A stretch of DNA of 32,916 nucleotides from a virus. The notes under the pieces are model-generated. The model was not told the origin of the DNA and searched no databases. It worked only from the letters and a program-made list of their open reading frames with translations. The DNA lies in the IMG/VR virus record IMGVR_UViG_3300035162_001664, positions 1-32,916 of that record. One strand, given 5' to 3'. Position 1 is the stretch's first letter. Every line of letters begins with the position of its first letter. The position numbers and the translations under genes were made by a program. Positions 3,945 through 28,094 of the stretch are shown piece by piece.

Positions 3945-3965
3945 GAGTACTTCTCCATAAATTTA

Positions 3966-3982
3966 TATACTTTTAAAGTATA
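3966..3982. promoter_or_regulatory. Operator-like palindrome over the P2 -10 box
   Basis: TATACTTT and AAAGTATA are perfect 8-base inverted arms around a single T. The site covers the whole -10 hexamer and reaches the expected start of promoter P2, where a bound dimeric repressor would block transcription. In AT-rich DNA such a palindrome may also arise by chance, and no regulator is known here. Confidence 0.35.
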
Positions 3983-4005
3983 CAGGATTTTTAGAATAAT
4001 GTCAA
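3977..4005 (-). promoter_or_regulatory. Sigma70-type promoter P2 of the gp47-gp46 operon
   Basis: The minus strand carries TTGACA (4005-4000), exactly 17 bases, then TATACT (3982-3977), with a predicted start near 3970 and a short leader to the gp47 ribosome-binding site at 3956-3953. The -35 box begins five bases after the gp55 stop codon. The box plus stop codon form a 14-base word also present at promoter P1. Confidence 0.85.
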
Positions 4006-4009
4006 CCGA

Positions 4010-4837
4010 TTAATCAGGAATACTAGAGCTATTTCTTAACAAGGAAGCTTCCCATTCAGCATTACCTGTTCGAGTGTGACTAGGACTCATGCCGTTCTGT
4101 TCAAGAATGTCATCTCTAATGTTTTGATTACGTTTTTCTATGTTAATGACACGCACAAAACTATTAGTAACGGCAGCAGTGTAATATGCAAATGGATTGT
4201 TTGACTTAGATTCGTCAAACTGTAAACCAATCTGTGCTAATTGTAGTATTGCTTGTCCGCGCATTTCGTCATTGTAGGTGTAACCACGTACATTGCCTCT
4301 TGTAGCATAACGATCGCATAGTTTCATCCACATCATAGCAAGCTTGTTAGTTGCTTTACCGTGCTTGTGACTAAAGTTACCGTTTTCCATGCCACCTTCC
4401 CAATGACTCTTGCCTACACATTGTAAATTACCTTCGTCATCAAACTTATAATGCTTAAACGGAGGAAAATTTAATTTTACTTTGTAGTCTGCAGGTGTTT
4501 TGGGATTCTTTTTACGTCCAGGCTCTTCTGGAATATGATCAAACGTCATTACACGGAATACTAATTCTTCCTTAGTAATTGTTTTATAATCTATTTCGCA
4601 TTCTGCTTGTTTAACTTTTTGTCCAGCTGCTTTGCGAGCAGCATAGTCAGCATCGCCTAAGCGTTTTGCTTTATTGCGTTTAGCTTCAGCTATCGTTCTG
4701 ATGTTAATTTTTTCAACATCTAACAAAATGATGTCAAATTGGTGATAATCTGATGAAATGTAACTATTGTATGTATTTTTAGACTTATGTATTTCAGACA
4801 ATATGTCTTTGTTGTTGAGATAATTTACTCTTTTCAT
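4010..4837 (-). CDS. 55: Late-transcription sigma factor gp55
   Basis: gp55 directs RNA polymerase to phage late promoters with a TATAAATA-like -10. The start VNYLNNKDILSEI resembles T4 gp55 (VNNKELL), and the conserved core shows GYTYNDEMRGQAI, then FDESKSNNPFAYYTAAV and FVRVINIEKRNQ (from Phe207), which align by eye with the T4 region containing FDETKYKNPHAY. The protein is 275 aa, against about 185 in T4; the extra length lies mainly between residues 20 and 160 and contains a Lys/Pro-rich stretch. The hydrophobic C-terminal clamp-binding tail of T4 gp55 is not obvious here (the end is LLRNSSSIPD). A strong AAGGAG (4848-4843) and promoter P3 lie upstream. The gene is divergent from the late structural genes it should activate. 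Confidence 0.9.
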   Translation of the reverse strand: MKRVNYLNNKDILSEIHKSKNTYNSYISSDYHQFDIILLDVEKINIRTIAEAKRNKAKRLGDADYAARKAAGQKVKQAECEIDYKTITKEELVFRVMTFDHIPEEPGRKKNPKTPADYKVKLNFPPFKHYKFDDEGNLQCVGKSHWEGGMENGNFSHKHGKATNKLAMMWMKLCDRYATRGNVRGYTYNDEMRGQAILQLAQIGLQFDESKSNNPFAYYTAAVTNSFVRVINIEKRNQNIRDDILEQNGMSPSHTRTGNAEWEASLLRNSSSIPD

Positions 4838-10220: not shown

Positions 10221-10661
10221 ATGGCAGATCAAAGATTATATAACGACATAGTGGTTAAAAATAACCGAGTGCAATCGTCTCCTGTGAAGAGCAGGGCATA
10301 CAGAGGATTGTCAACAGTTGGCAAGTCTGTAGGCAATACTGTAGCATACGACTTAGAACTTATCAAACAAGATTTAATAAATCACTTGCATATTAGACAA
10401 GGTGAAAAACTTGAAAATCCAGAGTTTGGAACTATTGTTTGGGACTTGCTTTTTGAACCTTTGACAGAAAGTCTTAAAGAAGCTGTTGCAAAAAATATTA
10501 CCGAAATAGTAAACTACGACCCACGAGTACAAGTAGAGCGTATTGTAGTTGACGAGTACGAAGCCGGCATAATTATCGAATGTGAACTTACTTATTTGCC
10601 TTATAATATTACAGAACAATTAGTATTTAAATTTGACGAAGCGAACGGCTTACTAGATTAA
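10221..10661 (+). CDS. 25: Baseplate wedge protein gp25
   Basis: A 146-aa wedge protein with the gp25 / phage W lysozyme-like fold, in which the name reflects fold and not proven enzyme activity. The diagnostic stretch is LIKQDLINHLHIRQGEKLEN, then PEFGTIVWDLLFEPLT (about residues 71-86), followed by a helix and a strand-turn-strand ending in ELTYLPYNITEQLVFKF. T4 gp25 is 132 aa. The only ATG is at 10221, and an in-frame TAG lies at 10191. The best ribosome-binding candidate, AAGAGAG, is rather far (about 12 bases). It sits between the spike and gp6, the usual neighbours of gp25, and with gp6 and gp53 builds the inner wedge. Confidence 0.93.
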   Translation: MADQRLYNDIVVKNNRVQSSPVKSRAYRGLSTVGKSVGNTVAYDLELIKQDLINHLHIRQGEKLENPEFGTIVWDLLFEPLTESLKEAVAKNITEIVNYDPRVQVERIVVDEYEAGIIIECELTYLPYNITEQLVFKFDEANGLLD

Positions 10662-10719: not shown

Positions 10720-13700
10720 ATGTCAAGTACAAACAGACAAAACAGATTATTGGTTGCAGAAGATTGGAAAAGAATCTATCAGAGCTACCAAAATGCAGAT
10801 TTTAAGTCATACGATTTTGATAATCTAAGAAGATCGATGATTAACTATCTTCGCAAAAATTATGCAGAAGATTTTAACGATTATATCGAATCTAGTGAGT
10901 ATCTTGCACTTATTGACCTAATTGCTTTCCTTGGACAGAACTTGTCATTCCGCATTGACTTGAACGCAAGAGAAAACTTTTTAGAACTAGCAGAGCGCAG
11001 AGAAAGTGTATTGCGTATTGCTAGAATGTTGTCTTATAATCCTAAACGCAATCAAGCAGCAAACGGCTTACTGCGTATTAGTACAGTAAAAACTACTGAA
11101 GGTGTGTACGATAATAATGGTACTAATTTAAGTAATGTTACAATAGAATGGAATGATAGTTCTAATCCAGATTGGTATGAGCAATTTACTAAAGTATTAA
11201 ACTCAGCATTAACAAAACGTAACCAAATTGGAACACCAATACAACAAGGAGCAGTAGGCACAGTTGCTACTAGTGTGTACAAGCTTAATTCTAATTCAAA
11301 GACTGTGCCAGTATACGGATTTACTAAAAATATTGATGGTAGAAATTTAAACTTTGAAGTTACAAGTTGTAAAATTGACGACTCTAGTATTATTGAAGAA
11401 GCGCCGCTTCCAGGAAACAATCTAAGTCTATTGTATAGAGACGATGGCGCTGGATCAGGAAGTGCAAATTCAGGCTTCTTCTGCCACTTCCGTCAGGGCA
11501 CTTTACAAAATGCTAATTTTATAGTTGACACTCCTAGTAACAACCAAGTAGTTGCTCTTGACGTAGAAAATATAAACAACGAAGATTTATGGCTATATCA
11601 ACTTGACTCAAACAACAGCGAGCAAAGTATATGGACCAAAGTAGATACTGTAGAAGGCAACAATGTTGTATATAATTCTGTAAGTAAAAATGTAAGAAAT
11701 ATTTATTTCCCTCAGACTAGACTGGGCGACAGAGTAAACCTAGTGTTTAGTGATGGTACATTTGGTAATTTGCCTAAGGGCTCCTTCCGTTCGTATTATC
11801 GTGTTTCTAAAAATGCAGCTTATACAATTTCTCCTCGTAATATAAGAAATGTTTCTATAAATATTCCTTATATTAACTCTGCTGGAAAAGTCGAAACACT
11901 TAGTATTAATTTAGAATTAACAACAACAGTAAATAATGCAGCAGAAACTGAATCAAACGATAACATTAAAGTTAACGCTCCTGCATTATACTATACTCAA
12001 AATAGAATGATTACAGCAGAAGACTACAATATTGCCCCGCTAGCAATTAGTCAAGATATTGTAAAGACAAAAGCAGTTAACAGAGTTGCAAGTGGATTTA
12101 GTAGATATTTTGACTTAATTGATTATACAGGAAAGTATTCAAGTACAAATATCTTTGCTAATGACGGTGTTATATATAGAGAAGAATTTTTAGAAAAAAC
12201 TGAATTTAGTTTTAATAATAAAACTGAAGTTGAAAATGTTATCTACAATACTATTACTCCGATAATTAGAGGCGAAACACTGCGTAACTATTATTATAAG
12301 AATTTTGCACAAATTGATATGATATCTTATAATACACAATTTACTCGAGTAACTTCAGAAACTAATTTATCAACAGGATACTTTGTTAATACCAACGACA
12401 GCAGTCTTTATAAAGTAGGCGTAGCTTATACCGGTGGTAACTTTAAGTTTATTCAGCCCGGCGCAATGTGTAAATTTATTGCTCCTACAGGCTATTACTT
12501 TGTGAAAGACACTAATGAGCTAAAGCTAGGCGATATGAGTGCTCAAGGATCAACTAATTATATCTGGACAAAGGTAGTAAGTGTATTAGGCGATGGCACT
12601 GCTAATGGCACTGGAATCTCTAGCAGCGAAGGTGTTATTAAGTTTAGCGACAATATACCTACTACTGCAATACTAGAAAAAATAATACCAAAATTATCAC
12701 AAGGCTTAATAACAGATATTTCTAATAGAGCAATTGATTTGATATTTGCATATAAGTCTTTTGGACTAAGATATGACCTAAATACAGCTACTTGGAAAAT
12801 CATAACAAGTGATAATTTAAATGTTAATGATGGATTTAACTTGGCAAAATCAGGTGATAATGCAAATCAAAATCTTGACTCTAGTTGGTTAATATTATTT
12901 GAAACCAATGGCGAAAAATACAATGTAACTTATAGAAATTTAAGATATATATTTGAAAGCGAAGCTGAAACAAGATTCTTCTACGATAGTACAGATAAAG
13001 TTTATGATAACAAAACTGGAAAAGTTGTAAAAGACAAGATCAGAGTATTAAACATCAACAATCAAGTAGACGAATTACTTCCGTATACTAAAGACATTGA
13101 TTGGGAGATTATTGCAGAATATAAAGAGCCGACTGGATATATTGATACGAAGAAAATACAAGTAACATTCCTTGATAATGATAGCGATGGGGTAGTAGAT
13201 GATCCTGATCTATTCGACTTGTTAGTTGCTCCTGATGTTAACGTGTTGTCTAAGTATGTAGTTCAAAAGCGTACTACTAACATCGATAATGTAGAAGAAT
13301 GGAAATTTATAGATCTTACTAGTGAAAACATTTTAGTATTAGATAGCGAAGCTAGTGTGCAAAATGTAACATTATATCCTAATGGACAATTATTTTATTT
13401 TACTAGCCTAAATGCATTTAAAACTCTAAACACTGTAAATGCAAAATATACAATTAATAATAACTATAGAGCATTTTTAGGAAGAAAGGGACTAAAGTTC
13501 CATTATATTCACACTGCTGATTATAACCAAAGAATTGATCCAAGTGCAAGTAATATTGTTGATGTTTATATGTTAACTAGAAATTACGATGTTCAATTTA
13601 CTAGATGGTTAAAAGGACTAGATTCAGTAAAGCCACTTCCGCCGAGTACTAATCAAATGTTCTTTGATTACGGAAAGCAATTAAACAATATTAAATCAAT

Positions 13701-14172
13701 TAGTGATGAAATTGTATATCATCCTGTAAATTATAAAGTGTTGTTTGGCGACAAGGCAGAGTCGGCATTACAAGCTACTATTAAAGTAGTTAAAAATAAT
13801 GAAGTTGTTGTAAGCGACAACGATATTAAAACACGCATTGTTATTGCAATTGACGAGTTCTTTGATCTACAAAATTGGGACTTTGGAGATACATTTTATT
13901 GGAGTGAATTAAGTTCGTTTATTACATACAACTTAGCACCTGATATTGTTAGTATAGTAATTGTACCAGATGCTGCAACGAGTGCATTTGGGTCAATTTT
14001 CCAAGTAAACAGCGAAAGCAATGAAATATTTAAGAGTGGTGCAACAGTGAGCGATATTGAAATTATAGACGAAATTACAGAAGCAAAACTTAAAGCAAGC
14101 GGTACGATAACTTATGCATCAAACTCTACAGTTGGCATAAGTTCAGCATCATTTAACGGAGGCAGTCAATAA
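10720..14172 (+). CDS. 6: Baseplate wedge protein gp6, enlarged
   Basis: gp6 forms the continuous inner ring of T4-type baseplates. The N-terminus is clear: RSMINYLRKNYAEDFNDYIE, then IDLIAFLGQNLSFRIDLNAR and ENFLELAERRESVLRIARML, up to residue 110. The C-terminus also matches gp6: YKVLFGDKAE, IDEFFDLQNWDFGDTFYWSE, IVSIVIVPD and EIFKSGATVSDIEI. The protein is 1150 aa against 660 in T4; the additional roughly 450-500 residues lie in the middle (about 530-960). Within this part, DNDSDGVVDDPD (819-830) has the Asp pattern of an EF-hand-like calcium loop. AAGGCGG precedes the ATG by seven bases, and the stop overlaps the giant gene's ATG (TAATG). The wedge role is firm; the function of the extra part is unknown. 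Confidence 0.92.
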   Translation: MSSTNRQNRLLVAEDWKRIYQSYQNADFKSYDFDNLRRSMINYLRKNYAEDFNDYIESSEYLALIDLIAFLGQNLSFRIDLNARENFLELAERRESVLRIARMLSYNPKRNQAANGLLRISTVKTTEGVYDNNGTNLSNVTIEWNDSSNPDWYEQFTKVLNSALTKRNQIGTPIQQGAVGTVATSVYKLNSNSKTVPVYGFTKNIDGRNLNFEVTSCKIDDSSIIEEAPLPGNNLSLLYRDDGAGSGSANSGFFCHFRQGTLQNANFIVDTPSNNQVVALDVENINNEDLWLYQLDSNNSEQSIWTKVDTVEGNNVVYNSVSKNVRNIYFPQTRLGDRVNLVFSDGTFGNLPKGSFRSYYRVSKNAAYTISPRNIRNVSINIPYINSAGKVETLSINLELTTTVNNAAETESNDNIKVNAPALYYTQNRMITAEDYNIAPLAISQDIVKTKAVNRVASGFSRYFDLIDYTGKYSSTNIFANDGVIYREEFLEKTEFSFNNKTEVENVIYNTITPIIRGETLRNYYYKNFAQIDMISYNTQFTRVTSETNLSTGYFVNTNDSSLYKVGVAYTGGNFKFIQPGAMCKFIAPTGYYFVKDTNELKLGDMSAQGSTNYIWTKVVSVLGDGTANGTGISSSEGVIKFSDNIPTTAILEKIIPKLSQGLITDISNRAIDLIFAYKSFGLRYDLNTATWKIITSDNLNVNDGFNLAKSGDNANQNLDSSWLILFETNGEKYNVTYRNLRYIFESEAETRFFYDSTDKVYDNKTGKVVKDKIRVLNINNQVDELLPYTKDIDWEIIAEYKEPTGYIDTKKIQVTFLDNDSDGVVDDPDLFDLLVAPDVNVLSKYVVQKRTTNIDNVEEWKFIDLTSENILVLDSEASVQNVTLYPNGQLFYFTSLNAFKTLNTVNAKYTINNNYRAFLGRKGLKFHYIHTADYNQRIDPSASNIVDVYMLTRNYDVQFTRWLKGLDSVKPLPPSTNQMFFDYGKQLNNIKSISDEIVYHPVNYKVLFGDKAESALQATIKVVKNNEVVVSDNDIKTRIVIAIDEFFDLQNWDFGDTFYWSELSSFITYNLAPDIVSIVIVPDAATSAFGSIFQVNSESNEIFKSGATVSDIEIIDEITEAKLKASGTITYASNSTVGISSASFNGGSQ

Positions 14173-17100
14173 TGGCTAAGGATCAAGAAGAAATTAATCT
14201 ACCGGGAACTAACCCAAGCAATCGAAAAACTTCTGTAGACTTGTTACCTAAATATTTTAGAACTGATGCAAACAAGAAATTTCTAGCAGCTACATTAGAT
14301 CCGTTAATACAAGATGGTGTTATTGATAAGTTAAATGGATATCTTGGAAGAAAGACTTCTAAAGCGTTTTCAGTAACCGATAACTATATTCCCGATATTA
14401 CAGATGATAGAGAAAATTATCAACTTGAACCTGCATTAGTTGTAAAAGACAACAACCAGAACACAACGTTCTATAAAGATTATAATGATTATGTTAATCA
14501 ACTTCGAGCATACGGCGGCAATGTCGATAATCACAGTCGACTTAACACCCAGGAATTTTATTCTTTAGATCCAAGAGTTGACTGGGACAAGCTAACAAAT
14601 TACAGAGAGTATTATTGGTTATCTCAAGGTCCGTCAACTATTAGTATTGCAGGACAAGAAAAGGGCATAACAAGTACATACGGTGTACAGCTTGTTAACG
14701 ATGGCGACAATAATGCTTATGTATTAAGTCCTGATGGATTAACTAGAAATCCTACTATTAAGCTTTACCGTGGACAAACTTATAATTTCGAAGTTGATCA
14801 AAAAAACAATCCATTTGCTATTAAGACTAAAAAAGTTAAATCTGGATTTGATTTTAATGACGGAGTAACAAATAACGGAGCCGAAAAAGGTGTAGTATCT
14901 ATTACTATTACACAAAATACACCTGACATATTACACTATGTAAACTTAAATGACTTATCTGCGTCTGGTTTAATACAAGTACTATCTATAGACGAAAATA
15001 CAAAAATTGATGTAGACAATGAAATAATTGGCAAAAAACAATATCAATTAAAGTCAGGACATTATTTAAGTAACGGTATGAAGATTGATTTTGTTGGCGA
15101 TGTAACACCGTCGACATATGCTGACGGTAATTGGTATGTTGAAGGTGTGGGCAAAGAAATTGTCTTAATAAGTGAACAGACACTAGAGACTTTATATCCA
15201 ACACAAACTATAACAGAATTGCAATTTGATGATGTAGGGTTTGATGTCACGCCGTTTGATCAGACTTCGGATAAAGCTAAAGATTATATTACTATTAATA
15301 GATCAGCGTATGACGGCAATCAATGGTCTCGTGCAAATAGATGGTTCCATAAAGATGTAATAGAAACTAGTTTTGAGATATCAGGTCTAGCACCAGTAAT
15401 TGATCAAAGCGCTCGCGCAAACCGTCCAATTATTGAATTTATCCCAGGACTTCAACTATTTAATAATGGATGGAATCGAATCCAAGACGTTGATCTTGTT
15501 GATACAGTTACTACTGATATTATGAGTCAAATTGAAGGTACTACAGGCTACTATGTTGACAATATAAATCTTGTTGCTGGAATGCGTGTAATCTTCACAG
15601 CTGATAATGATTTACTTATTAAGGATAAGGTCTTTACAGTTAAGTTTGTAAGATTTAATAATGATACTATTATTACACTTGTTCCTGATGCAATACCAGT
15701 AAGCTCAGGCAGCACGTTAGTAATTAAATCAGGAAACAAAAACCAAGGTAAGCAATACTGGTTTAACGGAAATATTTGGACTTCAGCTCAACAAAAAGAA
15801 GATGTTAACCAGCCACCGTTATTTGATTTATATGACAGTAATAGTGTATCGTTAAGCGATCCAACAGTATACGGTTCTACTGAGTTTGTTGGAAACAAGG
15901 TATTTTCTTATAGAGAAGGTACAGGAACAGCAGATACAGTATTAGGATTTCCTATAACTTATCTAAATATTTCAAATATCGGAGATATTGTTTTTGACTG
16001 TGATTTGTTAACAGACACGTATAACTATAATATTAATGAAAAGAAATATTCAATCATTGCTAAAGATTCATTCTTAAAAGTTTACAACCGCATAGGAGGC
16101 TTTGGTTACCATAGTGCTTGGGAACGTGCAATTACTGACAGTAAGCAATTTGTTATTAGACATTTTATTGCAGATCTAAATAGAAACAATTTTGAAATTG
16201 ATGTTTATAATAAAGCAGCAAGTATTACAGATTTAGAAATACAAGTATTTGTAAACAACAAGATAGTTTATAATTATGAGCTAGTAACACAAAACGATCA
16301 ATTGTTTATTAATTTTATAACAGACTTAGTAGAAAACGATAGTGTAATAATTAAAACCCACACAGCTACTAATAATAAAAATAAAAATGGATATTATGAA
16401 TTTCCGTTAAACTTGCAAAATAATCCAAATAACGAAGATCCACAAACAATTACTCTTGGAGAAATATTAGATCACGTTGAAACTATTGTAAATAATAGTC
16501 CTGAAGTGACTGGAGATTTTCCCGGAACTACAAATCTTAGAGATGTAGGCAATGCTAGTAAATATGGTTCACGATTTGTAAAACATTCTGGACCGATTAA
16601 TATTGCACTTTATCACTTAACAAATAAAGATACTAATATTATCAAAGCACTTGATAATGCTGCAAAAAGTTATGATAAGTTTCAAAAGTCTTTCTTAGAT
16701 TATATTACAAATAACAGTACCGATAGTACTGTTAACTTAGCAGTTGATCAAATATTAAATGAATTACTTAGTGACACTGACGAAACACAAAGTTGGTATA
16801 ATAGCGGTATGGTTCCGTTTAGAGCGTTTAATGAAATAGAACATATTGTAATAGATGCATCATTTAGTTTATATGGTATTACAGAAATGTACGAACCTTA
16901 TAAACACCAAGACAAGGCTTTATTAGTTTACATTAACGACTTTCAAATTACATTAGGCGATGATTATGAATTTATAAATGATAATTTTGTAAAAATTAAT
17001 ATTGATATACAGCCAGGCGATGTAATTAAAATTAGAGAATACGAAACATTAGTGGGTAATTACATTCCGCCAACTCCTGCTAAACTTGGATTGCTTCCAA

Positions 17101-20100
17101 AATATAAACCGTCAATATATGTCGATTCGACATTGCAAGAACCTGCCAGTGTAATTCAAGGACACGACGGTAGTATTATCCGTGCATTTGACGATTACCG
17201 AGATGATTTAATATTAGAACTAGAGCGTCGAATCTTCAACAATATTAAAGTTGAATACACTGATGAATTAATCAACTTCTTTGAATTTAAACCAGGCGGC
17301 TATAGAAAAACTGATTACCAGTTACCAGAAGTAAACAATATACTGCGTCCGTTATTTTTAAAATGGCATAAGAATTTAAATGTTTCTTATACTGATAATT
17401 CTTGGTACGAAACTGGTAATGCATGGAACAATAATTATACTACTGGAAGCTTTGGTTCAAAGCCTTTACCTGGACATTGGAGAGGCATTTATAATTACTG
17501 GTACGACACTGATAGACCTCATATTACTCCTTGGGAAATGCTAGGGTTTAGTATAGAGCCAACTTGGTGGGTAGATACATACGGTCCAGCACCGTATACT
17601 AGTGAAAACTTAATTCTTTGGAATGACCTGCAAGACGGCCGTATTAAAGAACCAGGTGCAGAAAGAATTGATACTAATTTCAGTAGACCTCAATTAATGG
17701 ATATTATTCCAGTAGATCAATATGGTAATTTAATAGATCCAATTGCTAGTAATATTGCACAGAATTATGACACACTAGCATTTGCAGATAATTTTAATTT
17801 TGGTGATTATGGTCCTGTTGAAAATGCTTGGCGTAGATCGAGTGGATACAGATTCTCTTTATTATGTGCTTGGCTACTTACTAAGCCTGCACAAGTATTT
17901 GGAGTTTATTTAGACCGTGCTCACACTAGTCGAGATATAAGCGGAATTATTAAATATGCAGGCGAATTTCCTACTCTATCTGGATTGTCAAATAAAGTAT
18001 CAAACACAGTTCTAGCAAGCGGACTGATTGACTATGTTAACAATTGGCTTTATCAATCAGGGTCATCTTTTATTAATAATTATATATTTAATTTAGCTAA
18101 TGCATCTAACCAATTAGGTGCAAAGTTAGCAGGTTATACAGAAAAACAGAAATTTAGATTAATACTTGATAGTCGTACACCTTTAAATGAGGGTAATGTA
18201 TTTGTTCCAGACGAAAATTATGAAGTAGTTTTAAACACTAGTAGTCCTGTTGAAGTATTATCTTATAGCGGTGCTATTATTGAAAAGGCATCTAATGGAT
18301 TTATATTAAAAGGTTACGATCAGAAGTTTCCTTTCTTTAATTATAAACCGATTATTACTTCACAGAGTGATAGCAAAATTGTTATTGGCGCTGTAAGTGA
18401 GGGGTATATGACATGGGCTGAAGAGCGCACCTACATAAAAGGAAAAATTGTACAATATAACTCAGTTTATTACAGATGTAGAGAAGATCACTTGAGTACT
18501 ACTGAGTTTGATGTAGATAAGTTTTCAAAATTAGCATCCTTACCAACAATTGGCGGCAGAGATTATTTCCATAGAACGCTATTTTCAGATTCATACTCTA
18601 CAGTTGATTACGGTACAGTATTTCCTACTGTACAAGATGTTGTAGATTTCTTTTATGGTTATTCTGCATACTTAGAAGATGCAGGCTTTGTATTTGATAA
18701 CTATGATAACGAAAATCAAATTCTTCATGATTGGGATACATCTATAAAAGAATTTGTATTCTGGACAACACAAAATTGGGCAGCTGGTACAGTTATTTCG
18801 TTAAGTCCGGGAGCAACAGAATTTAGTGTTGAGATCGATTATACAAACGTTGATGATTTGTTAAATGACTTCTATGATTATGAAATTTATAATAGTTCAG
18901 GAACTAGAATCAATATCAATGACTTAAATATTTCACGAAATAATAGTAAGTTTAGTATATCGTCTAATAACGATGACGGTATATATTTTGCAAGATTGCA
19001 CCTTGTACAAACAGAACACGTATTATTAATTGATAACAAAACAGTGTTTAACGACATTATATATGACACACCTGCAGGATACAGACAAGAGCGTATTAAG
19101 GTTCTTGGTTATAAAACTGTATTGTGGGATGGTGGACTAACAACCCCTGGATTTATTTACGACGAAATAGTAATTAATAATTGGGAACCGTTTAACCAAT
19201 ATAGAATCGGTGATATTGTTAAGAACAAAGAATTCTTATATAGTGCTAAGAAAAAAGTAGTATCTGCAGAATACTTTGACGAGGCTAATTGGACACAATT
19301 AAGCGGAGTGCAAAAAAGTCAATTACTTCCTAACTTCGATTATCGAGCAGAACAGTTTACAGACTTTTTTGATTTAGACACCGATAATTTTGACTCGGAG
19401 CAGCAGCGTTTAGCTCAACATACAATTGGTTATCAAAAACGTAAATATCTTGAAAATATTATTAACGATGATGTAAGTCAATACAAATTTTATCAAGGAA
19501 TGATTCTTGACAAAGGTACTAAGAATGTACTTACTAAGATGTTTGACAAACTAAGTTCAGCTGATAAAGAAAGCTTAGAGTTCTACGAAGAATGGGCGAT
19601 TCGAGTTGGACAGTATGGCGCAGTTGATAGTTTTGTCGAAGTAGAATATTTGATTGATGAGAAAAAAGTTAGACTAGATCCACAGCCGTTTGAATTAGTT
19701 AACATAAAAGATAGTTCAAATACTGATTTAGTATATCGCTTTACTAATGATGAAGCGTATGTAACCTATGACGGGTATACAAATACACCATTTAAGAAAA
19801 CAACTAAGCTTCCGAACTTTATTCGAACTGCTGGCAATGTAGATAGTGATGATGTTACATTTAGTGTTAAAGAAACTACTGACATCTTAAATCTAAATAT
19901 TGACGATTTTAGAGTAGGTTCAACTGTTTGGGTAAGTTTCTACGGAACAACTTGGAATATTTTAAGGTTGCAAGACACTAGTTCGAATGTATTGTCTATT
20001 TCTCCGTCCGGTAAAGACGTTATTGTTACTCTTAACAAGATTGTAACACTAACAGTTGGAGATATTGTAGGAATTAAAAATGTTTCAGATGAAGCTGATA

Positions 20101-23100
20101 AGTTTTACAAAGTTAAATCAATAGCTGATTATACAGTTACATTAGAAACAGATAAACAGTTAGATAATGCAATTGACATGGAAGACAGCAGCTTAGGAAT
20201 TTTCTATAATTTTGTAGATGCTAGAATACCTAATATAAGCAAACTAAACGAAATTACTCCAGATGTAGGATTTCAGGACGGTGAACTAGTTTGGGTAGAT
20301 GGCGAAGATGGAAATTGGAAAGTTTATCAAAAGAATAAAGTATATAACACAACAGAATTACTTGGATCGTCAACTAACGAAAACACTCAAGGTACTTACG
20401 GCGCTGCTGTTGCAGTAGATGCATATAATAGAGACTTTATTGTTGCTGATCCTTCTGGCGAAACTACTACTCCGGTTCCTGTATACGAGTCAGACGGAAT
20501 AAATGTTGACAGATATGTAACAACTTCTAAAAGTGCAGTCTATGTATACGCAAGATCAAATGATATAACTGCGCATAGATTAATTCAGACTATTAGACTT
20601 CCAGACAACCTTAATAAGATAATATTTGATATACCGCTTAATGATCGTCTTGAGCAGCCTTTATATAAAGGGTACGGAAAAGTTATTTCTACCTCACTAG
20701 ATACTAAGTTCTTAGCAATTGCTATACCAGATGCAAGTAACATTCCGTCAGACTTTACTGGAGAATGGAGCGCATTAACTACTTACGCAGATGACGAAGT
20801 TGTACTATATAATGGAGTTCTTTATCAGGCAACTGAAGATGGCCTTAATAGTACTCCTCCAAATTTAGTATCAGCTTGGGAAGCAATGGGACATAACCCA
20901 ATTGACGGACAAGCAATTACTAATAGCGGCCTTGCTAATCAAGGTTGGGTTGGTATGTATATTAGATCAGGAAGCGGAAGTTATAGTAATTTGTTTAATA
21001 TGCAATCTCCTATTCCTCAAGCAAATCAGCGCTTTGGCGAAACAATACGTATTGAAACAGTAGCAGCTAACGATTATAGAATGTTTGTTAGTGCGCCGGG
21101 ACATAACGGAACTGGCCAAATATTTGTATATGATTGGAATTTAGCAACTGGCGGCAAGTGGGTTTGGCAACCAACTAAATCGTTGCCTGCAATTGACAGA
21201 GCAACTGGAACAGATAACGTAGAAGTAATTAGTACTGCTATGGATTACGGCTATGATGTAAAAACATCTAACTCAGGAAATCGAGTATTTGTAAGTGCTC
21301 CTTATGCAAACAATGTACACTTTGAAGAATACAAAGGCAACTATAATATAGCTATTGCATATGCAATAGATAATGTTATAAAGTATTCCGGCGATTACTG
21401 GAAAAAACTAACAGTTAGCGCAGCAGGAACAACTCCAGTTGCAGGTATTAACTGGGAAATGTTGTCAGTCGATAGTGAAGGAGCATATGGTAAATTATAT
21501 GTTTACGACTATGTAGATAATACATATCAGTTAGCACAAGTTATTAGTGAGTTTAATCTTGACAATACAGAATCTACTATTAGTGATGCATTTGCAAAAA
21601 GCATTGACGTAACACCAAGTGGTAATACACTTGTAATTGGTGTTCCTAATTATGATAGTGATCAGGTAGATACTGGCAAGGTAATTGTATTTAATTATGT
21701 TGAAAATGCTTATAGCATAACACAGACATTAACAGGTAACGCAACAGAAAATCAAGAGTTTGGTCACAAAGTAAGTATTAGTGATGATACATTAGCAATT
21801 GGATCTCGTAGAGGAAACCAAGTAGATAGAATCACTATACTACCAGAAGGAACGACTTTTGACTCTGATGCTACATATATCTCGGATATCTATACTGATA
21901 CTGGTAAAGTAGATGTTTATAGTAGATACCAAGGAAGCTTTACATACGAAGACACAATTATACTAGGTGATAAAGATTTATACGACCTAGGCTCAGTATT
22001 AATTGCTAATAACAACCACGTAATTGTCGGCGTTCCGAACTATAACGAATACTCAGGTGGTGTTATTGACTTCTGGAAGCAATATGGTTCTTCAAGTTGG
22101 AAAACACATAGACAAGCAATATTTCCTGCAGATGTAACTAATATTAAGAGCTCGTTCTTATATGATACTAGAAAAAATGTTTTAGCTAAAGAGCTAGACA
22201 TTATTGATCCATTACAAGGAAAAATTGCAGGCCCAGCAGATCAAGAAATTGATTATAAAACTTTCTGGGATCCAGCAGTGTATACAATAGGTTCTGATAC
22301 TGTTAATGTAGACGAGACTGGCGCCTGGGACGCATCAAATATTGGCAAAGTGTGGTGGGATTTATCCACTGCTAGATTTGTTAACTATCATCAAAATAGT
22401 GCCCTTTATCGAGCAAACAATTGGAGCAAGTTAAGCGAGTTTGCTAACATCGATGTCTACGAATGGGTAAGTTCAAAATATAAACCAAGTACTTGGGATG
22501 AATTATCAGCTAGTGATAATGGTCTTGCATTAGGAATATCCGGAGTATCTAAATATGGAGATACAGTTTATTCAGTAGCTAGAGAATATGATACGGTATC
22601 TAAAAACTTTACCCAAAAGTATATGTTCTGGGTTAAGCAAAAAACAACTACTCCTAATATCGAAAATAGACAACTATCTATTTCGTCAATTGCAGCTCTC
22701 ATAGCAGATCCAAAAAGTCAAGGATATGCTCATATTGCTATTACAAGTGATAACAGCTTTGTATTATATAATTGTAAGCAATTCTTAAATGATAACGATG
22801 TTGCTTTAAACATACGTTTTTGGAATACAGAAGTTACGGATAGAAATATCCATAGACAGTATCAAATCTTAACAGAAGGTCTTGATATAAGTTCACCTAA
22901 CGACACAATTATTAATAAATGGTTTGATAGCTTAGTTGGATTTACTCCAGAAGGACTAGCTGTGCCTAATCCTAATTTGAGTGTTAAGCAGAGTTATGGT
23001 ATTTTAAACAAGCCTAGACAGGGTATGTTTAAAAATAGACTAGAAGCTTTCAAACAATTAATTGAGCAGACAAATTATGTATTTTCTAAAAACATATTAG

Positions 23101-26100
23101 TTGATGACTTTAACTTAGCACCATTTTTTGAAAAAGAACCACTGCCTAATGAATTTTCTAGACTGTACGATTTAAAAATTAACGATGATCTAGAACTAAG
23201 TCTTATTGCTACAGGTAAACTAGCAGCAGCTGAGGTAGATCTTAGAATCGAAGACGGCAAAATAGTAGACGTAATTATTACTAATGCCGGACGTGGTTAT
23301 CTAACTCCGCCTGCAATTACAGTAGTAGGACAAGGCGACGCCGCTAAACTAGAGTCTTCCTTAGATGCATTTGGTAGAATTTCTAGTGTAACTATTAAAA
23401 ATGCCGGAAGTGGATATTTAGACGACACATATGCAAGTGTAAGACAATACACAGTTTTAAACACAGACGTTAACAGTACCGGTAAATGGGGACTTTATAA
23501 TTACAGTGCTAAAAGTAAGTCTTGGCAAATTGTTAGAATGCAGTCGTATGATGTTACTAAGTATTGGAATTATAAAGATTGGTATGCTGAAGGATTTGAC
23601 GAAAATACTCCGATTGACTTCTTAATTGACGGCTCGTTCCAGTTAGCAGATATAACTCCTAGAATTAACCAATTAGTAAAAATTACTAATATTGGTAGCA
23701 GCGGACAATGGTTGTTGCTAAGAAGAAATGCTCAATCTAACGAAGGTGATATTAATTTAAATTATCAAGTTGTGGGTAGACAGGATGCTACTATAGAAAT
23801 TTCTAATGCGCTATATGATTATAATGAAAACGTATTAGGGTATGACGGAATTAGTTATGAGGAAATTGCATACGATAGTATTCCGATTACTGAATCTAGA
23901 AAAATTCTAGAAGCATTGCGCACTAACATATTTGTAGACAATCTACAAGTTGAGTTTAATAACTTGTTCTTTAACACTGTCCGTTATGTATTAACAGAAC
24001 AGTTAGCAGTTGATTGGATATTTAAAACAAGTTTTGTAAAAGCAAAACACAATGTTGGCGAGTTGGATCAAAGAATTACTTACAAAAACGATAGTCTTGC
24101 TTCTTATGAACAGTATGTTAATGAAGTAAAACCGTATAGAACAAAAGTTAGAGAATTTATAAGCAACTATACTAAAACAGAAACAGTTAATATGTTAACT
24201 TCTGACTTTGATTTACAGTCTAACAACAATATTAGAGTAATTGATAATCAATTACAACTAAATGGAAATACTACACTTGATGTATATCCTAACAAGAGTT
24301 GGAAAGATAATCATACATATGGCGTTGCATCTATTGAAATTCAAAATGCAGGCTCCGGTTATCAAACTGCTCCTGAATTAACTATTATCGGCGGCGGTGG
24401 CACAGGTGCCGCTGCTCGTGCATTCATTGGACGCAATGGAAGTATTACTAATATTATTATGACAACTAACGGGACCGGTTACTACTCGATGCCAGAAATT
24501 GTTATTAACGGGTCTGTTGATGATACTGGCACCGCAGCTAGATTGGTTGCTATTTTAGATAATAGTACTATTCGTAAGAATGATATTACAATTAAGTTTG
24601 ACAGAATAACAGGCGATGCTGAAGTTACAACACTTGATGTTACTGAGACTTTCTTAGGAACTGGCATACTAACAGCATTTAATTTAAAATGGCCAATTGA
24701 TGTAAGAAAGGGTCTTGCTACTGTTACTATTAACGGAATAGAATTATTAGAAAGTGAATTTACTGTATCTAATAGTTCTGCATTTGAAAATGGGTTAACT
24801 ACTACAACAGGTCACATAGAAATTCCTAGTCCTCCAGATGCTGCATCAACACTTGTAATTGAATATAAAAAAGATATTGGGACTTTAACAGCAGCAGATA
24901 GAATTAATTATTATTATGATCCTGCGGTAGGACAATTATCTAAAGATACTAGTGCGTTAATGAGAGGCGTTGACTATGGCGGAGTTAGTGTAACAGGATT
25001 TGGATTTGAGCCATCAGGTGGCTGGGGAACAGACGGAACAACTTGGGACAATGTTAACTGGGAAGGCAGCGACGAAGCGTTTACTGACATTACAGTTTAT
25101 AGTGACTTATCAGAAGTAGTGTATACGTTTGCTACTGCTCCAGAAGTTGGCGAAACTTGGAATGTTTATGTAAACGGCATAAGAATTGATGCATCGAACT
25201 TTGTAGCAGCTACGGGTAATATAGTAATGCAATCTATTGTCGGCGATGGTATAACAACTGCATTTACTATACCAATATCTAATGTACCTTCGATTGTTAC
25301 AGGTGACGGTACTGACGATCAAATAGTTCTAAGACGCATTAATAGCGATGGTAGCTTTATTCCAGTTGGTGTAGATATTGACAGTGTTATTGACGGCCGA
25401 GACTTAGGTTATACTCAAGCAACAGGATACAATCCTGAAGATATTAACATTGACGGCGACGGATTTGTTACTCCAACTACAAGTAGTAGTCTAGAAGAAC
25501 AGCTATCAGGACATGTATCAGAAGCAATTGACATGTATGTGTATAATTTAGCTAAAAGTGGTGGTCCACAGGTTAACAGTATTAGTTATGTTGCAGACGG
25601 CAGCACTAAAAGTTTTGCATACATTTCAGACCCACAAAGTGAAGATGCACTAATTATTAAAGTTAATAATAAGATTCTTCGCCCTACTGATTACAAGTAT
25701 ACTCCAAATTTTGCTGCATACACTGATTTCTTAGTAGCGTATGAAAGTAATTTAGCAATCAAGCAAACAAGGCTTCCGATAGCCCAGGCTAGTTTGTTAG
25801 AGTCTACTAATTCACTTACAGCACTAGACGATCAGTTAACAGATATACTTGCAGAAATAACTCAAATAAACATTCAGCTTAGTTTCTGGAATAACGAAGT
25901 AGTGTTCTATACCTCAGAAGTAGCAAGAATAGATGGAGAAATAGCAGCAGCTGATCCACTATCTAATCAGTTTATAATTCTTCAAGGTGAGAGAACCACT
26001 GCACTACAGCAGCTTTCAGCAGCACAAAATGAAGTTAGCAATTATCAAGATGATTTACAAATAGCAGAGGATACTAGAGACAGTATTTCTGCTAGTGTTC

Positions 26101-28094
26101 CTGCAATTGAAAACACAATTGCAACACTTACAAGCGAAATTGCAACACTTGAAACTGACATTGATACACTTGAAACTGATATACAATCTGTAGGTGATTA
26201 TCTAATTAATCCAGGAAAAACAATTATCTTAAATACTACTCCTGTTGTTAATGATGTTATTACTATAATGACATTTGGCACTAATGGTAATGATATTATT
26301 TTAATTGACAATTTCATTGGCGACGGTAGTACCAGTGAGTTTGTAACTCCTCTTAAATATACTGATGCATTAAGAGTATTTGCAACAGTTAATGGCAAGC
26401 AGCAAACTCCTAGAGTTAAAGAATCAACTGACGAATACGAAGAAGTAGGCAGATTAGTATTAGAATTTGATCCTACTCCGGACGCTAATGCTACAGTTAA
26501 GTATACTGTGTACAATAACGAATCACCTGATTATAGTTACATACAGAAGCAAAATATAACTACTGACTTTAGTACACTTGCTTATAATTTAGATGATACG
26601 CCATATGGTGCATCACCTAGTGCAAACTTCATAGTTGCATTTAAAGGAGATAAATTACTAAATGGAGGCTATACACAAACTGCAATAACAACAGCAAGCA
26701 ATGCTTATCAAGTAGATTTAAGTGATTTTGCAGATGGTGAATTTAGTGCAGATCACGTAGAAATTTATGTCGAAGGCCAACAAAAAGCACTTGGTGTTGA
26801 TTATCAAATTGACTTCGGATTAAACACTATTGATTTTATTCCAGGAAAAATTACAGCAGGCCAAGAGCTTAAAATATTTATAATGACTCGTGCTGACTAT
26901 TATGTAATTAATAATCAATTTGTATTAGCAGCAAATCCTGAAGATAACGAAGATATTATGATAATGACATTCTTTAACACTGATGTATTTGATACAAATC
27001 ATGTATCTAAGAGCGTACTATCACGTCGTAGTCTAACAATAGATAGTAAATGGTACAGAAGTAGTGTTGCAGGTAATGCAGGAATTATTTTACTAGATAG
27101 CGCAGTATCAAATGAAAACTATGTAATGATTGCAATTAATGGCGATGTACTAACTCCGCATAGAGATTATCGTTTAATTGAAAACGGCACTGCGGTACAA
27201 GTTGATATTGCACGTAATATTAACAGTACTGATAATTTTTATGTAATTGTGTTTGACTATGATCCTGTAGAAAAGAGTATTGCGTTTAGACAATTTACTG
27301 ATAACTTAAACAGAACGCATTATAAAGCAATTAACAATACTAAGATGGCCAAATTAGCTGCACCATTAAATTGGTATGATACATCGATTAATGTTGATGA
27401 TGCAAGCAATTTAGATACTCCTAATCCTAGAAAAAATATTCCGGGAATTATCTTTATAGGTGCTGAACGCATAGAATATATGCAAAAGAATGGGAATGTA
27501 TTAAGTCAATTACGTCGTGGCACAGTGGGAACAGCTACCCAAGCAGTATATCATATAGATACTGAGTTACTTAATCAAGGTAAAAGCTTAACAATTGATT
27601 ATACAGACACTGAAATGACTTCGATATTTTATGGAGACGGATCGACACAAGAGTTTTTACTTCCATACGCAGTTACGGTAAATACAAGTACAGTAAGAGC
27701 AAATAACAAATGGAATCGAATACATGAAACTGATATTAATGTTGCAGATATTCCAGACAGTTATGGCCAAGTAGACGATATTGAAGTCTTTGTAGGAGGT
27801 AAGCGTTTGTTAAAAGTACCATGCACATTATACAATCCTAATAAGGATCAATTAAGTCCAGCAGGCGACAGCGCACTTCCGGCAGACTTTAGTGCAACTG
27901 TTCCTCAATTAAACAATGCAGGTAGTAAAATACCAGTACCGATAAGATTTACAGTGCCGCCGGCAATGGGATCGAAGATTGTCATTAAGCGTAAACAAGG
28001 CGTAATTTGGCAAGAACGCGGAGAATCATTAGCAGATGCAAAAAATTCAATTGCTAAGTTTTTACGTGCTCAAGAAGTTTCGTTTCCAAAATAA
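14172..28094 (+). CDS. Giant 4640-aa baseplate/tail structural protein (gp7 position)
   Basis: One uninterrupted frame encodes about 510 kDa. It follows gp6 with a TAATG overlap, where T4 has gp7 (1032 aa); similarity to gp7 is not visible, so a wedge-periphery role is inferred. Visible parts: a helical start (LLPKYFRTDANKKFLAATLD, residues 25-44); beta domains near 680-745 and 895-960; an aromatic-rich region at 1055-1260; small carbohydrate-binding-like modules at 1415 and 1671; a conserved-looking helical block at 1763-1850; a seven-bladed FG-GAP propeller at about 2074-2640 with two more modules inserted; NAGSGY repeats near 3020-3085 and 3384-3465; a helical block at 3190-3310; GDGST-type beta repeats from 3490 to the end, split by a coiled coil at 3846-4012; and a final IAKFLRAQEVSFPK. 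No signal peptide, membrane segment or enzyme motif was seen. GGAGG lies upstream. Confidence 0.85.
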   Translation: MAKDQEEINLPGTNPSNRKTSVDLLPKYFRTDANKKFLAATLDPLIQDGVIDKLNGYLGRKTSKAFSVTDNYIPDITDDRENYQLEPALVVKDNNQNTTFYKDYNDYVNQLRAYGGNVDNHSRLNTQEFYSLDPRVDWDKLTNYREYYWLSQGPSTISIAGQEKGITSTYGVQLVNDGDNNAYVLSPDGLTRNPTIKLYRGQTYNFEVDQKNNPFAIKTKKVKSGFDFNDGVTNNGAEKGVVSITITQNTPDILHYVNLNDLSASGLIQVLSIDENTKIDVDNEIIGKKQYQLKSGHYLSNGMKIDFVGDVTPSTYADGNWYVEGVGKEIVLISEQTLETLYPTQTITELQFDDVGFDVTPFDQTSDKAKDYITINRSAYDGNQWSRANRWFHKDVIETSFEISGLAPVIDQSARANRPIIEFIPGLQLFNNGWNRIQDVDLVDTVTTDIMSQIEGTTGYYVDNINLVAGMRVIFTADNDLLIKDKVFTVKFVRFNNDTIITLVPDAIPVSSGSTLVIKSGNKNQGKQYWFNGNIWTSAQQKEDVNQPPLFDLYDSNSVSLSDPTVYGSTEFVGNKVFSYREGTGTADTVLGFPITYLNISNIGDIVFDCDLLTDTYNYNINEKKYSIIAKDSFLKVYNRIGGFGYHSAWERAITDSKQFVIRHFIADLNRNNFEIDVYNKAASITDLEIQVFVNNKIVYNYELVTQNDQLFINFITDLVENDSVIIKTHTATNNKNKNGYYEFPLNLQNNPNNEDPQTITLGEILDHVETIVNNSPEVTGDFPGTTNLRDVGNASKYGSRFVKHSGPINIALYHLTNKDTNIIKALDNAAKSYDKFQKSFLDYITNNSTDSTVNLAVDQILNELLSDTDETQSWYNSGMVPFRAFNEIEHIVIDASFSLYGITEMYEPYKHQDKALLVYINDFQITLGDDYEFINDNFVKINIDIQPGDVIKIREYETLVGNYIPPTPAKLGLLPKYKPSIYVDSTLQEPASVIQGHDGSIIRAFDDYRDDLILELERRIFNNIKVEYTDELINFFEFKPGGYRKTDYQLPEVNNILRPLFLKWHKNLNVSYTDNSWYETGNAWNNNYTTGSFGSKPLPGHWRGIYNYWYDTDRPHITPWEMLGFSIEPTWWVDTYGPAPYTSENLILWNDLQDGRIKEPGAERIDTNFSRPQLMDIIPVDQYGNLIDPIASNIAQNYDTLAFADNFNFGDYGPVENAWRRSSGYRFSLLCAWLLTKPAQVFGVYLDRAHTSRDISGIIKYAGEFPTLSGLSNKVSNTVLASGLIDYVNNWLYQSGSSFINNYIFNLANASNQLGAKLAGYTEKQKFRLILDSRTPLNEGNVFVPDENYEVVLNTSSPVEVLSYSGAIIEKASNGFILKGYDQKFPFFNYKPIITSQSDSKIVIGAVSEGYMTWAEERTYIKGKIVQYNSVYYRCREDHLSTTEFDVDKFSKLASLPTIGGRDYFHRTLFSDSYSTVDYGTVFPTVQDVVDFFYGYSAYLEDAGFVFDNYDNENQILHDWDTSIKEFVFWTTQNWAAGTVISLSPGATEFSVEIDYTNVDDLLNDFYDYEIYNSSGTRININDLNISRNNSKFSISSNNDDGIYFARLHLVQTEHVLLIDNKTVFNDIIYDTPAGYRQERIKVLGYKTVLWDGGLTTPGFIYDEIVINNWEPFNQYRIGDIVKNKEFLYSAKKKVVSAEYFDEANWTQLSGVQKSQLLPNFDYRAEQFTDFFDLDTDNFDSEQQRLAQHTIGYQKRKYLENIINDDVSQYKFYQGMILDKGTKNVLTKMFDKLSSADKESLEFYEEWAIRVGQYGAVDSFVEVEYLIDEKKVRLDPQPFELVNIKDSSNTDLVYRFTNDEAYVTYDGYTNTPFKKTTKLPNFIRTAGNVDSDDVTFSVKETTDILNLNIDDFRVGSTVWVSFYGTTWNILRLQDTSSNVLSISPSGKDVIVTLNKIVTLTVGDIVGIKNVSDEADKFYKVKSIADYTVTLETDKQLDNAIDMEDSSLGIFYNFVDARIPNISKLNEITPDVGFQDGELVWVDGEDGNWKVYQKNKVYNTTELLGSSTNENTQGTYGAAVAVDAYNRDFIVADPSGETTTPVPVYESDGINVDRYVTTSKSAVYVYARSNDITAHRLIQTIRLPDNLNKIIFDIPLNDRLEQPLYKGYGKVISTSLDTKFLAIAIPDASNIPSDFTGEWSALTTYADDEVVLYNGVLYQATEDGLNSTPPNLVSAWEAMGHNPIDGQAITNSGLANQGWVGMYIRSGSGSYSNLFNMQSPIPQANQRFGETIRIETVAANDYRMFVSAPGHNGTGQIFVYDWNLATGGKWVWQPTKSLPAIDRATGTDNVEVISTAMDYGYDVKTSNSGNRVFVSAPYANNVHFEEYKGNYNIAIAYAIDNVIKYSGDYWKKLTVSAAGTTPVAGINWEMLSVDSEGAYGKLYVYDYVDNTYQLAQVISEFNLDNTESTISDAFAKSIDVTPSGNTLVIGVPNYDSDQVDTGKVIVFNYVENAYSITQTLTGNATENQEFGHKVSISDDTLAIGSRRGNQVDRITILPEGTTFDSDATYISDIYTDTGKVDVYSRYQGSFTYEDTIILGDKDLYDLGSVLIANNNHVIVGVPNYNEYSGGVIDFWKQYGSSSWKTHRQAIFPADVTNIKSSFLYDTRKNVLAKELDIIDPLQGKIAGPADQEIDYKTFWDPAVYTIGSDTVNVDETGAWDASNIGKVWWDLSTARFVNYHQNSALYRANNWSKLSEFANIDVYEWVSSKYKPSTWDELSASDNGLALGISGVSKYGDTVYSVAREYDTVSKNFTQKYMFWVKQKTTTPNIENRQLSISSIAALIADPKSQGYAHIAITSDNSFVLYNCKQFLNDNDVALNIRFWNTEVTDRNIHRQYQILTEGLDISSPNDTIINKWFDSLVGFTPEGLAVPNPNLSVKQSYGILNKPRQGMFKNRLEAFKQLIEQTNYVFSKNILVDDFNLAPFFEKEPLPNEFSRLYDLKINDDLELSLIATGKLAAAEVDLRIEDGKIVDVIITNAGRGYLTPPAITVVGQGDAAKLESSLDAFGRISSVTIKNAGSGYLDDTYASVRQYTVLNTDVNSTGKWGLYNYSAKSKSWQIVRMQSYDVTKYWNYKDWYAEGFDENTPIDFLIDGSFQLADITPRINQLVKITNIGSSGQWLLLRRNAQSNEGDINLNYQVVGRQDATIEISNALYDYNENVLGYDGISYEEIAYDSIPITESRKILEALRTNIFVDNLQVEFNNLFFNTVRYVLTEQLAVDWIFKTSFVKAKHNVGELDQRITYKNDSLASYEQYVNEVKPYRTKVREFISNYTKTETVNMLTSDFDLQSNNNIRVIDNQLQLNGNTTLDVYPNKSWKDNHTYGVASIEIQNAGSGYQTAPELTIIGGGGTGAAARAFIGRNGSITNIIMTTNGTGYYSMPEIVINGSVDDTGTAARLVAILDNSTIRKNDITIKFDRITGDAEVTTLDVTETFLGTGILTAFNLKWPIDVRKGLATVTINGIELLESEFTVSNSSAFENGLTTTTGHIEIPSPPDAASTLVIEYKKDIGTLTAADRINYYYDPAVGQLSKDTSALMRGVDYGGVSVTGFGFEPSGGWGTDGTTWDNVNWEGSDEAFTDITVYSDLSEVVYTFATAPEVGETWNVYVNGIRIDASNFVAATGNIVMQSIVGDGITTAFTIPISNVPSIVTGDGTDDQIVLRRINSDGSFIPVGVDIDSVIDGRDLGYTQATGYNPEDINIDGDGFVTPTTSSSLEEQLSGHVSEAIDMYVYNLAKSGGPQVNSISYVADGSTKSFAYISDPQSEDALIIKVNNKILRPTDYKYTPNFAAYTDFLVAYESNLAIKQTRLPIAQASLLESTNSLTALDDQLTDILAEITQINIQLSFWNNEVVFYTSEVARIDGEIAAADPLSNQFIILQGERTTALQQLSAAQNEVSNYQDDLQIAEDTRDSISASVPAIENTIATLTSEIATLETDIDTLETDIQSVGDYLINPGKTIILNTTPVVNDVITIMTFGTNGNDIILIDNFIGDGSTSEFVTPLKYTDALRVFATVNGKQQTPRVKESTDEYEEVGRLVLEFDPTPDANATVKYTVYNNESPDYSYIQKQNITTDFSTLAYNLDDTPYGASPSANFIVAFKGDKLLNGGYTQTAITTASNAYQVDLSDFADGEFSADHVEIYVEGQQKALGVDYQIDFGLNTIDFIPGKITAGQELKIFIMTRADYYVINNQFVLAANPEDNEDIMIMTFFNTDVFDTNHVSKSVLSRRSLTIDSKWYRSSVAGNAGIILLDSAVSNENYVMIAINGDVLTPHRDYRLIENGTAVQVDIARNINSTDNFYVIVFDYDPVEKSIAFRQFTDNLNRTHYKAINNTKMAKLAAPLNWYDTSINVDDASNLDTPNPRKNIPGIIFIGAERIEYMQKNGNVLSQLRRGTVGTATQAVYHIDTELLNQGKSLTIDYTDTEMTSIFYGDGSTQEFLLPYAVTVNTSTVRANNKWNRIHETDINVADIPDSYGQVDDIEVFVGGKRLLKVPCTLYNPNKDQLSPAGDSALPADFSATVPQLNNAGSKIPVPIRFTVPPAMGSKIVIKRKQGVIWQERGESLADAKNSIAKFLRAQEVSFPK
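20391..22080 (+). other. Predicted seven-bladed FG-GAP beta-propeller inside the giant protein
   Basis: Seven repeats of the pattern [FY/L]G..[VI], then a hydrophobic strand ending in a Pro-containing turn, then a G-hydrophobic strand, begin near residues 2074, 2167, 2287, 2360, 2474, 2530 and 2607. Clear examples are FVSAPGHNGTGQIFVYDW, LVIGVPNYDSDQVDTGKVIV and VIVGVPNYNEYSGGVIDFW. This is the integrin-alpha type FG-GAP repeat, and seven is the number that closes such a propeller. Two small domains interrupt blades 2 and 4. Confidence 0.7.
26118..26180 (+). repeat. Three tandem 21-base units coding coiled-coil heptads
   Basis: Units at 26118-26138, 26139-26159 and 26160-26180 encode IATLTSE, IATLETD and IDTLETD. 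Neighbouring units share most bases, so the array probably grew by in-frame duplication. It forms the last part of the coiled coil at residues 3846-4012 of the giant protein. Confidence 0.8.

Follow-up and report, generated by a model that had tools for sequence, protein, structure and literature searches.

In IMG/VR virus record IMGVR_UViG_3300035162_001664, analysed here from position 1 to 32,916 (the window), a baseplate wedge gene encodes a megaprotein of 4640 amino acids (aa) that is predicted to contain a seven-bladed propeller of the integrin alpha type, with small modules resembling carbohydrate-binding modules (CBM) of the CBM5/12 type inserted in the same loop of two blades. Across more than 100 related viruses, modules have been added to this propeller on one class of loops; this points to a display surface whose parts can be exchanged. 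Propellers on baseplates and CBMs on wedge proteins have each been described before; what is new is an integrin-type propeller within a megaprotein at the gene position of T4 gp7, with insertion of modules on one face. No account of this propeller was found in the literature searched.

Seven FG-GAP-type blades are readable at aa 2076-2648, and an alignment of 30 rows (the window sequence and its relatives) was used both as input for AlphaFold2 and as a search profile. From this alignment, AlphaFold2 predicted the propeller with a predicted local distance difference test (pLDDT) score of 81.7 and a predicted template modelling (pTM) score of 0.81; from the single propeller sequence, pLDDT was 33 and no usable fold was obtained. 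In a Foldseek search of the PDB the best 20 matches are integrin alpha chains throughout, as are 50 of the 50 rows listed by VIA (Z 23.7-25.0, 355-388 residues, about 3.1-3.8 Å), the best of which (Z 25.0, 3.3 Å, 357 residues) covers model residues 27-617. Among solved structures, the 30-sequence profile matched integrin alpha-4 (E=3.2e-8), alpha-6, alpha-L, alpha-M and alpha-X, and a sequence search of the PDB with the window protein alone gave no match. Furthermore, a blade profile built solely from two distant relatives scored the window region at 79.5 bits with six domains above 5 bits, compared to 9.2 bits and one domain for the best of 1000 shuffles. Pfam FG-GAP_2 matches blade 6 at its cut-off (23 bits) and scores 49 bits in the close relative L092. 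An N-terminal strand (aa 2059-2064) probably serves as the outer strand of blade 7 in the model, apparently closing the ring, as the fold alignment spanning the whole ring also implies. As no DxDxDG calcium loop was found in aa 2030-2660, the region is predicted to be an integrin-type propeller, and not an integrin proper. The same searches bear on whether the propeller is a sialidase-like depolymerase, for which the presence of the pneumococcal sialidase NanA at rank 46 of the Foldseek list could be cited; with integrin alpha filling the top matches of both fold searches and no Pfam enzyme family matching the propeller region, such an enzyme is highly improbable and was set aside.

The inserts in blades 2 and 4 are, by sequence, homologous to each other, at about 45 residues each, and are predicted as units separate from the blades. 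Smith-Waterman alignment of one to the other scores 50, a value equalled by 1 of 2000 shuffles. In the AlphaFold2 model each has four strands distinct from those of the blades, starting at model residues 166, 181, 187 and 207 in insert 1 and at 358, 373, 379 and 399 in insert 2, so that the starts are 15, 6 and 20 residues apart in both. Insert 1 passes the Pfam CBM_5_12 cut-off of 26.2 bits, with 26.7 bits, and insert 2 alone falls below it. A module profile from which the window's own group was excluded scored 40.9 bits with insert 1 and 27.4 bits with insert 2, where the maxima among 2000 shuffles of each were 8.0 and 11.9 bits. The module profile matches chitinase and chitin-deacetylase modules, but among solved structures it scores best with tail proteins of phages, namely gp124, the tail spike of Milano (E=2.8e-12), and 9rkv (E=3.5e-10). 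It also matches the All3316 protein (PDB 7b5h chain AE, E=4.9e-7); if this structure is, as we take it to be, the baseplate of a cyanobacterial contractile injection system, the module would be widespread in contractile machines.

The first-pass annotation of this DNA had placed a seven-bladed integrin-like propeller at 20391-22080 in a phage baseplate protein, with a CBM5/12-like module at the equivalent loop position of blade 2 and of blade 4. The fold was borne out, and neither an open ring nor inserts folding into the blades were seen in the structure prediction and fold search; the location was right, with a ring slightly longer than first drawn (about 20346-22115). Strands and alignment agree on the B-C loop in both blades, an arrangement that near relatives keep, and the family resemblance holds for insert 1 by Pfam and for insert 2 through the module profile and its homology to insert 1. 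The baseplate setting is supported, as a wedge context, by the gp25-like and gp6-like genes upstream and by PHROG 10938. Its count of two modules is correct for the propeller, and two more of the same family occur in the core (aa 1415-1454 and 1671-1710).

Where insertions fall was surveyed in 111 distinct sequences, with loop lengths measured by profile alignment using a separate long-insert state and a loop scored as extended when more than 30 residues above its minimum; the contigs are related, not independent, and the counts describe the family and carry no significance test. The B-C and D-A loops are extended in 163 of 1315 instances, the A-B and C-D loops in 0 of 1425. Extended sites comprise the B-C loops of blades 1, 2, 3, 4 and 6 and the D-A junctions 1-2, 4-5 and 6-7. 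The stretch from strand 3C to strand 4A, extended in 99 of the 111 sequences, was tallied separately because the alignment did not anchor the D strand of blade 3; in L102, for example, the module at this site appears to come after the D strand. Matches to the module profile number 91 in the 2B-C loop, 75 in 3C-4A, 10 in 4B-C, five in 3B-C and three in the 1-2 D-A junction. A blade 4 B-C module is scored in 10 of 111 sequences, and the commonest second site lies between blades 3 and 4. In propellers of this kind, as general knowledge has it, the B-C and D-A loops share one face, which in integrins binds ligand and bears the I-domain. The family is also a clear example of domain insertion confined to a single loop class of an integrin-type propeller, an arrangement known from the I-domains of integrin alpha.

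When viral contigs were searched for the pattern of the window propeller directly, none matched; relatives were recruited through the conserved core and then through an alignment of propeller plus core, and whole-length rows were aligned. Four near relatives on metagenomic contigs (L092-L095) are 65-67% identical along the protein and retain both modules, and over 100 more distant metagenomic virus contigs carry the propeller. One of these propellers (L098) is on a contig of 381,886 bases, indicating that at least some carriers are jumbo phages. Some relatives have bare rings (e.g., L123, whole segment 479 aa), and in many, roughly 480 residues split the CBM5/12-like module of blade 2 (L012:13742-15421; likewise L013, L021, L039 and L082), a nested insert without a Pfam or PHROG match in L012 and without a Pfam match in L033. 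A different module of 70-90 residues (YNPVGS...GTGF...PDSTPSG) is seen between blades 3 and 4 in L076, L078, L079, L087, L104, L116 and others, filling the site where other relatives have a CBM5/12-like module. The propeller is 54% identical to that of L092 and 50% to that of L093, compared to 70-75% for the flanking core segments, and its fastest part is the blade 1 hairpin (22-25%). By sequence comparison, no other large region differs as much among near relatives, with the exception of a coiled coil near aa 3800-4000, the only other stretch as divergent.

In six isolate homologues the core is shared as far as aa 1843 and resumes at about aa 2640. Between these segments they hold unrelated sequence, from 115 residues (RaK2) to about 1525 (Atu_ph07, Phosso), and no propeller was recognisable in any of the six (PAC2/PA5oct, SCTP-2, Atu_ph07, Phosso, 2.275.O and RaK2). 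The site in Atu_ph07 (L007) and Phosso (L009) consists of about 1520 residues rich in repeated GxGY...P...V...GG motifs, and that of SCTP-2 includes a stretch that looks LamG-like by eye, for which Pfam gives no support. A separate hypothetical protein of 3692 aa in Phosso (XYS97267.1; PV764938, L011:7851-16675), with 24 FG-GAP_2 repeats in the part read (E=2.5e-175), was the sole tblastn match of the window propeller in the phage collection. The propeller shows the contents of one hypervariable site in a kind of very long structural gene of phages for which the usual annotation is hypothetical.

The reading favoured here, with confidence at about the halfway mark, is that the propeller is a one-sided module-display platform on the wedge, whose exposed face makes adaptable contacts with the host. 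The megaprotein would be the gp7-position wedge protein of a T4-supergroup jumbo phage, with the propeller set between two conserved core segments. The face of the A-B and C-D loops, which is constant, would most likely be packed on the rest of the wedge; the face of the B-C and D-A loops would take up modules, here the two CBM5/12-like ones of blades 2 and 4, and would most likely touch the host surface when the baseplate lands. The modules would then serve for adhesion or for presenting ligands, and not as chitin-binding domains of the classical type. Orientation in the virion, host contact and a ligand for the modules are what we infer; host contact is favoured because of the wedge position in a virion protein, the exchangeable site with its hypervariable face, the fast divergence, and the precedents of Vp4, phi11 and phiKZ. 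In Vp4 (Herelleviridae), the wedge protein Gp119 carries CBM folds and binds host cells, and its Deep-Blue homologue, which lacks the folds, does not bind them (Vp4: PMC11406892). The phi11 receptor-binding protein has a propeller, and phiKZ has one at the baseplate periphery, where receptor binding is not proven experimentally (PMC4901313).

Several observations weigh against this proposal. The modules (50-53% identity) change no faster than the blades (51-56%), and most relatives have the blade 2 site filled, a constancy greater than that of a pure arms-race element. Two further modules of the insert family sit in the conserved core of the megaprotein, and phage Milano has two inside the N-terminal tail-binding module of tail spike gp124 (PMC10811340); by analogy with these occurrences, CBM5/12-like modules can be structural. 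In addition, the platform Tyr-Trp of the solved chitinase module 2rts aligns, in a register set by pattern and hence approximate, with Glu2222-Asp2223 in insert 1, its counterparts in insert 2 are likewise non-aromatic, and the two positions are aromatic in just 7 and 11 of 171 modules of the propeller family, so that the aromatic sugar-binding platform appears to be almost always missing.

With the platform pair non-aromatic here and in nearly all 171 modules, classical chitin binding by the inserts is unlikely. The family match to CBM5/12, chitinase and chitin-deacetylase modules, and the N-acetylglucosamine (GlcNAc) receptors known for propeller-bearing phage receptor-binding proteins (PMC4901313), would fit functional chitin- or GlcNAc-type modules shown to host glycans, but given the replaced platform this is an improbable account. 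The first-pass proposal of a host-glycan receptor platform stands in its propeller, wedge context and separate modules, whereas sugar binding by the modules is doubtful, as both in the window lack the aromatic platform.

Loss of the platform also fits a scaffold within the virion, in which the modules would be small protein-protein joints docking tail fibres or adjacent wedge subunits, and the variable face would follow variable fibres instead of the surfaces of hosts. The Milano modules, those in the megaprotein's own core, the filled blade 2 site and the fibre genes directly downstream of the megaprotein in the window all agree with this alternative. However, a constant docking surface is not expected to gain and lose, on a single face, modules as well as inserts several hundred residues long, or to diverge more than any other large folded region. 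The scaffold is held to be a serious possibility that falls somewhat short of even.

If the variable face of the display platform does meet the host, the fibres of jumbo myophages would be complemented by a receptor platform on the wedge, and adaptation to hosts could be read from the exchange of modules loop by loop. A broader version, put forward tentatively and considered rather doubtful, is that jumbo phages use the design of the integrin head, with a constant mounting face and a hypervariable ligand face with inserted domains, as an evolvable second receptor platform on the wedge; the inserted domains would be the CBM5/12-like modules here, and the several hundred residues nested in such a module in relatives.

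Compared to known systems, the propeller shares with integrin alpha (PDB 7usm, 3v4p, 1jv2) its seven blades and its insertions on one loop class (the integrin side being general knowledge), but differs in lacking DxDxDG, in lying inside a wedge protein, in its CBM5/12-like inserts and in its low identity (14-17% in the VIA rows). The C-terminal seven-bladed propeller of phiKZ gp131 (4GBF) and the five-bladed one of phi11 Gp45 are likewise baseplate propellers with proposed receptor roles, in other protein contexts and with no CBM inserts reported. Vp4 Gp119 is also a baseplate wedge protein bearing CBM folds, though these are CBM16- and xylanase-type sandwiches rather than CBM5/12-like, and no propeller is reported. 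The two N-terminal modules of Milano gp124 (8fqc), the best solved match to the module family, are in the tail-binding part of a spike and not on a propeller. The six isolate megaproteins compared by sequence share the homologous core but have other sequence at the propeller site.

Features of the window megaprotein and its surroundings, and megaproteins of isolate phages (window positions in nucleotides)
Feature	Window position	Strand	Residues or length	Basis
gp25-like baseplate wedge protein	10221..10661	+		PHROG 43 and 261
gp6-like baseplate wedge protein	10720..14172	+		PHROG 10646 and 219
Baseplate-wedge megaprotein, T4 gp7 position	14172..28094	+	4640 aa	Open reading frame, PHROG 10938, isolate gene order
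Conserved core before variable site	14172..19700	+	aa 1-1843	Common to isolate jumbo phages
CBM5/12-like module in core	18414..18533	+	aa 1415-1454	Pfam best stretch 1414-1442, module comparison
CBM5/12-like module in core	19182..19301	+	aa 1671-1710	Module profile
Predicted integrin-alpha-like seven-bladed propeller	20346..22115	+	aa 2059-2648	AlphaFold2, fold searches, integrin alpha-4 profile match
Blade 1, with fast-changing hairpin aa 2096-2120	20397..20606	+	aa 2076-2145	Predicted strands, alignment
Blade 2, B-C loop broken by insert 1	20664..21020	+	aa 2165-2283	Predicted strands, alignment
Insert 1, CBM5/12-like, blade 2 B-C loop	20754..20897	+	aa 2195-2242	Pfam CBM_5_12 26.7 bits, own strands, module profile
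Blade 3	21030..21206	+	aa 2287-2345	Predicted strands, blade profile 12.5 bits
Blade 4, B-C loop broken by insert 2	21240..21557	+	aa 2357-2462	Predicted strands; blade profile 14.6 bits before, 5.4 after insert
Insert 2, CBM5/12-like, blade 4 B-C loop	21321..21479	+	aa 2384-2436	Module profile 27.4 bits, hhalign 98.8% (target module alignment includes insert 2)
Blade 5	21588..21749	+	aa 2473-2526	Blade profile 34.8 bits, predicted strands
Blade 6, with conserved TTFD hairpin	21756..21974	+	aa 2529-2601	Pfam FG-GAP_2, predicted strands
Blade 7	21984..22115	+	aa 2605-2648	Predicted strands; VIA alignment starts at model residue 27
Conserved core after propeller	22149..24221	+	aa 2660-3350	Common to isolate jumbo phages
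Pseudomonas PAC2 (PAC2/PA5oct) megaprotein			3857 aa	Homologous core and gene order
Salicola SCTP-2 megaprotein			3807 aa	Homologous core and gene order
Agrobacterium Atu_ph07 megaprotein			4449 aa	Homologous core and gene order
Vibrio 2.275.O megaprotein			3771 aa	Homologous core and gene order
Sinorhizobium Phosso megaprotein			4555 aa	Homologous core and gene order
Klebsiella RaK2 megaprotein			3326 aa	Homologous core and gene order
Escherichia 121Q megaprotein				Assigned from gene order only

The virus record (32.9 kb) has a T4-type gene set, in which minus-strand genes for a late sigma factor and an SbcCD-like nuclease are followed by the baseplate genes on the plus strand. The megaprotein reading frame matches PHROG 10938 (virion structural protein) with 1081.6 bits, and its gene comes after the gp25-like and gp6-like wedge genes, a position by which it is assigned as the counterpart of T4 gp7; sequence searches of the PDB with profiles of the core matched no T4 baseplate chain. 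In jumbo myophage isolates the gene order is the same, with the megaprotein after the gp6-like wedge protein. Virions of coliphage phAPEC6 contain gp245 (381.9 kDa, 17 unique peptides by mass spectrometry), which adjoins the 131 kDa wedge protein gp244 (PMC7247149); its size and gene order suggest that gp245 is a positional homologue belonging to the megaprotein family. Toward the C-terminus, a long coiled coil is predicted at window positions 25600-26250 (aa about 3810-4025), with weak Pfam coiled-coil matches.
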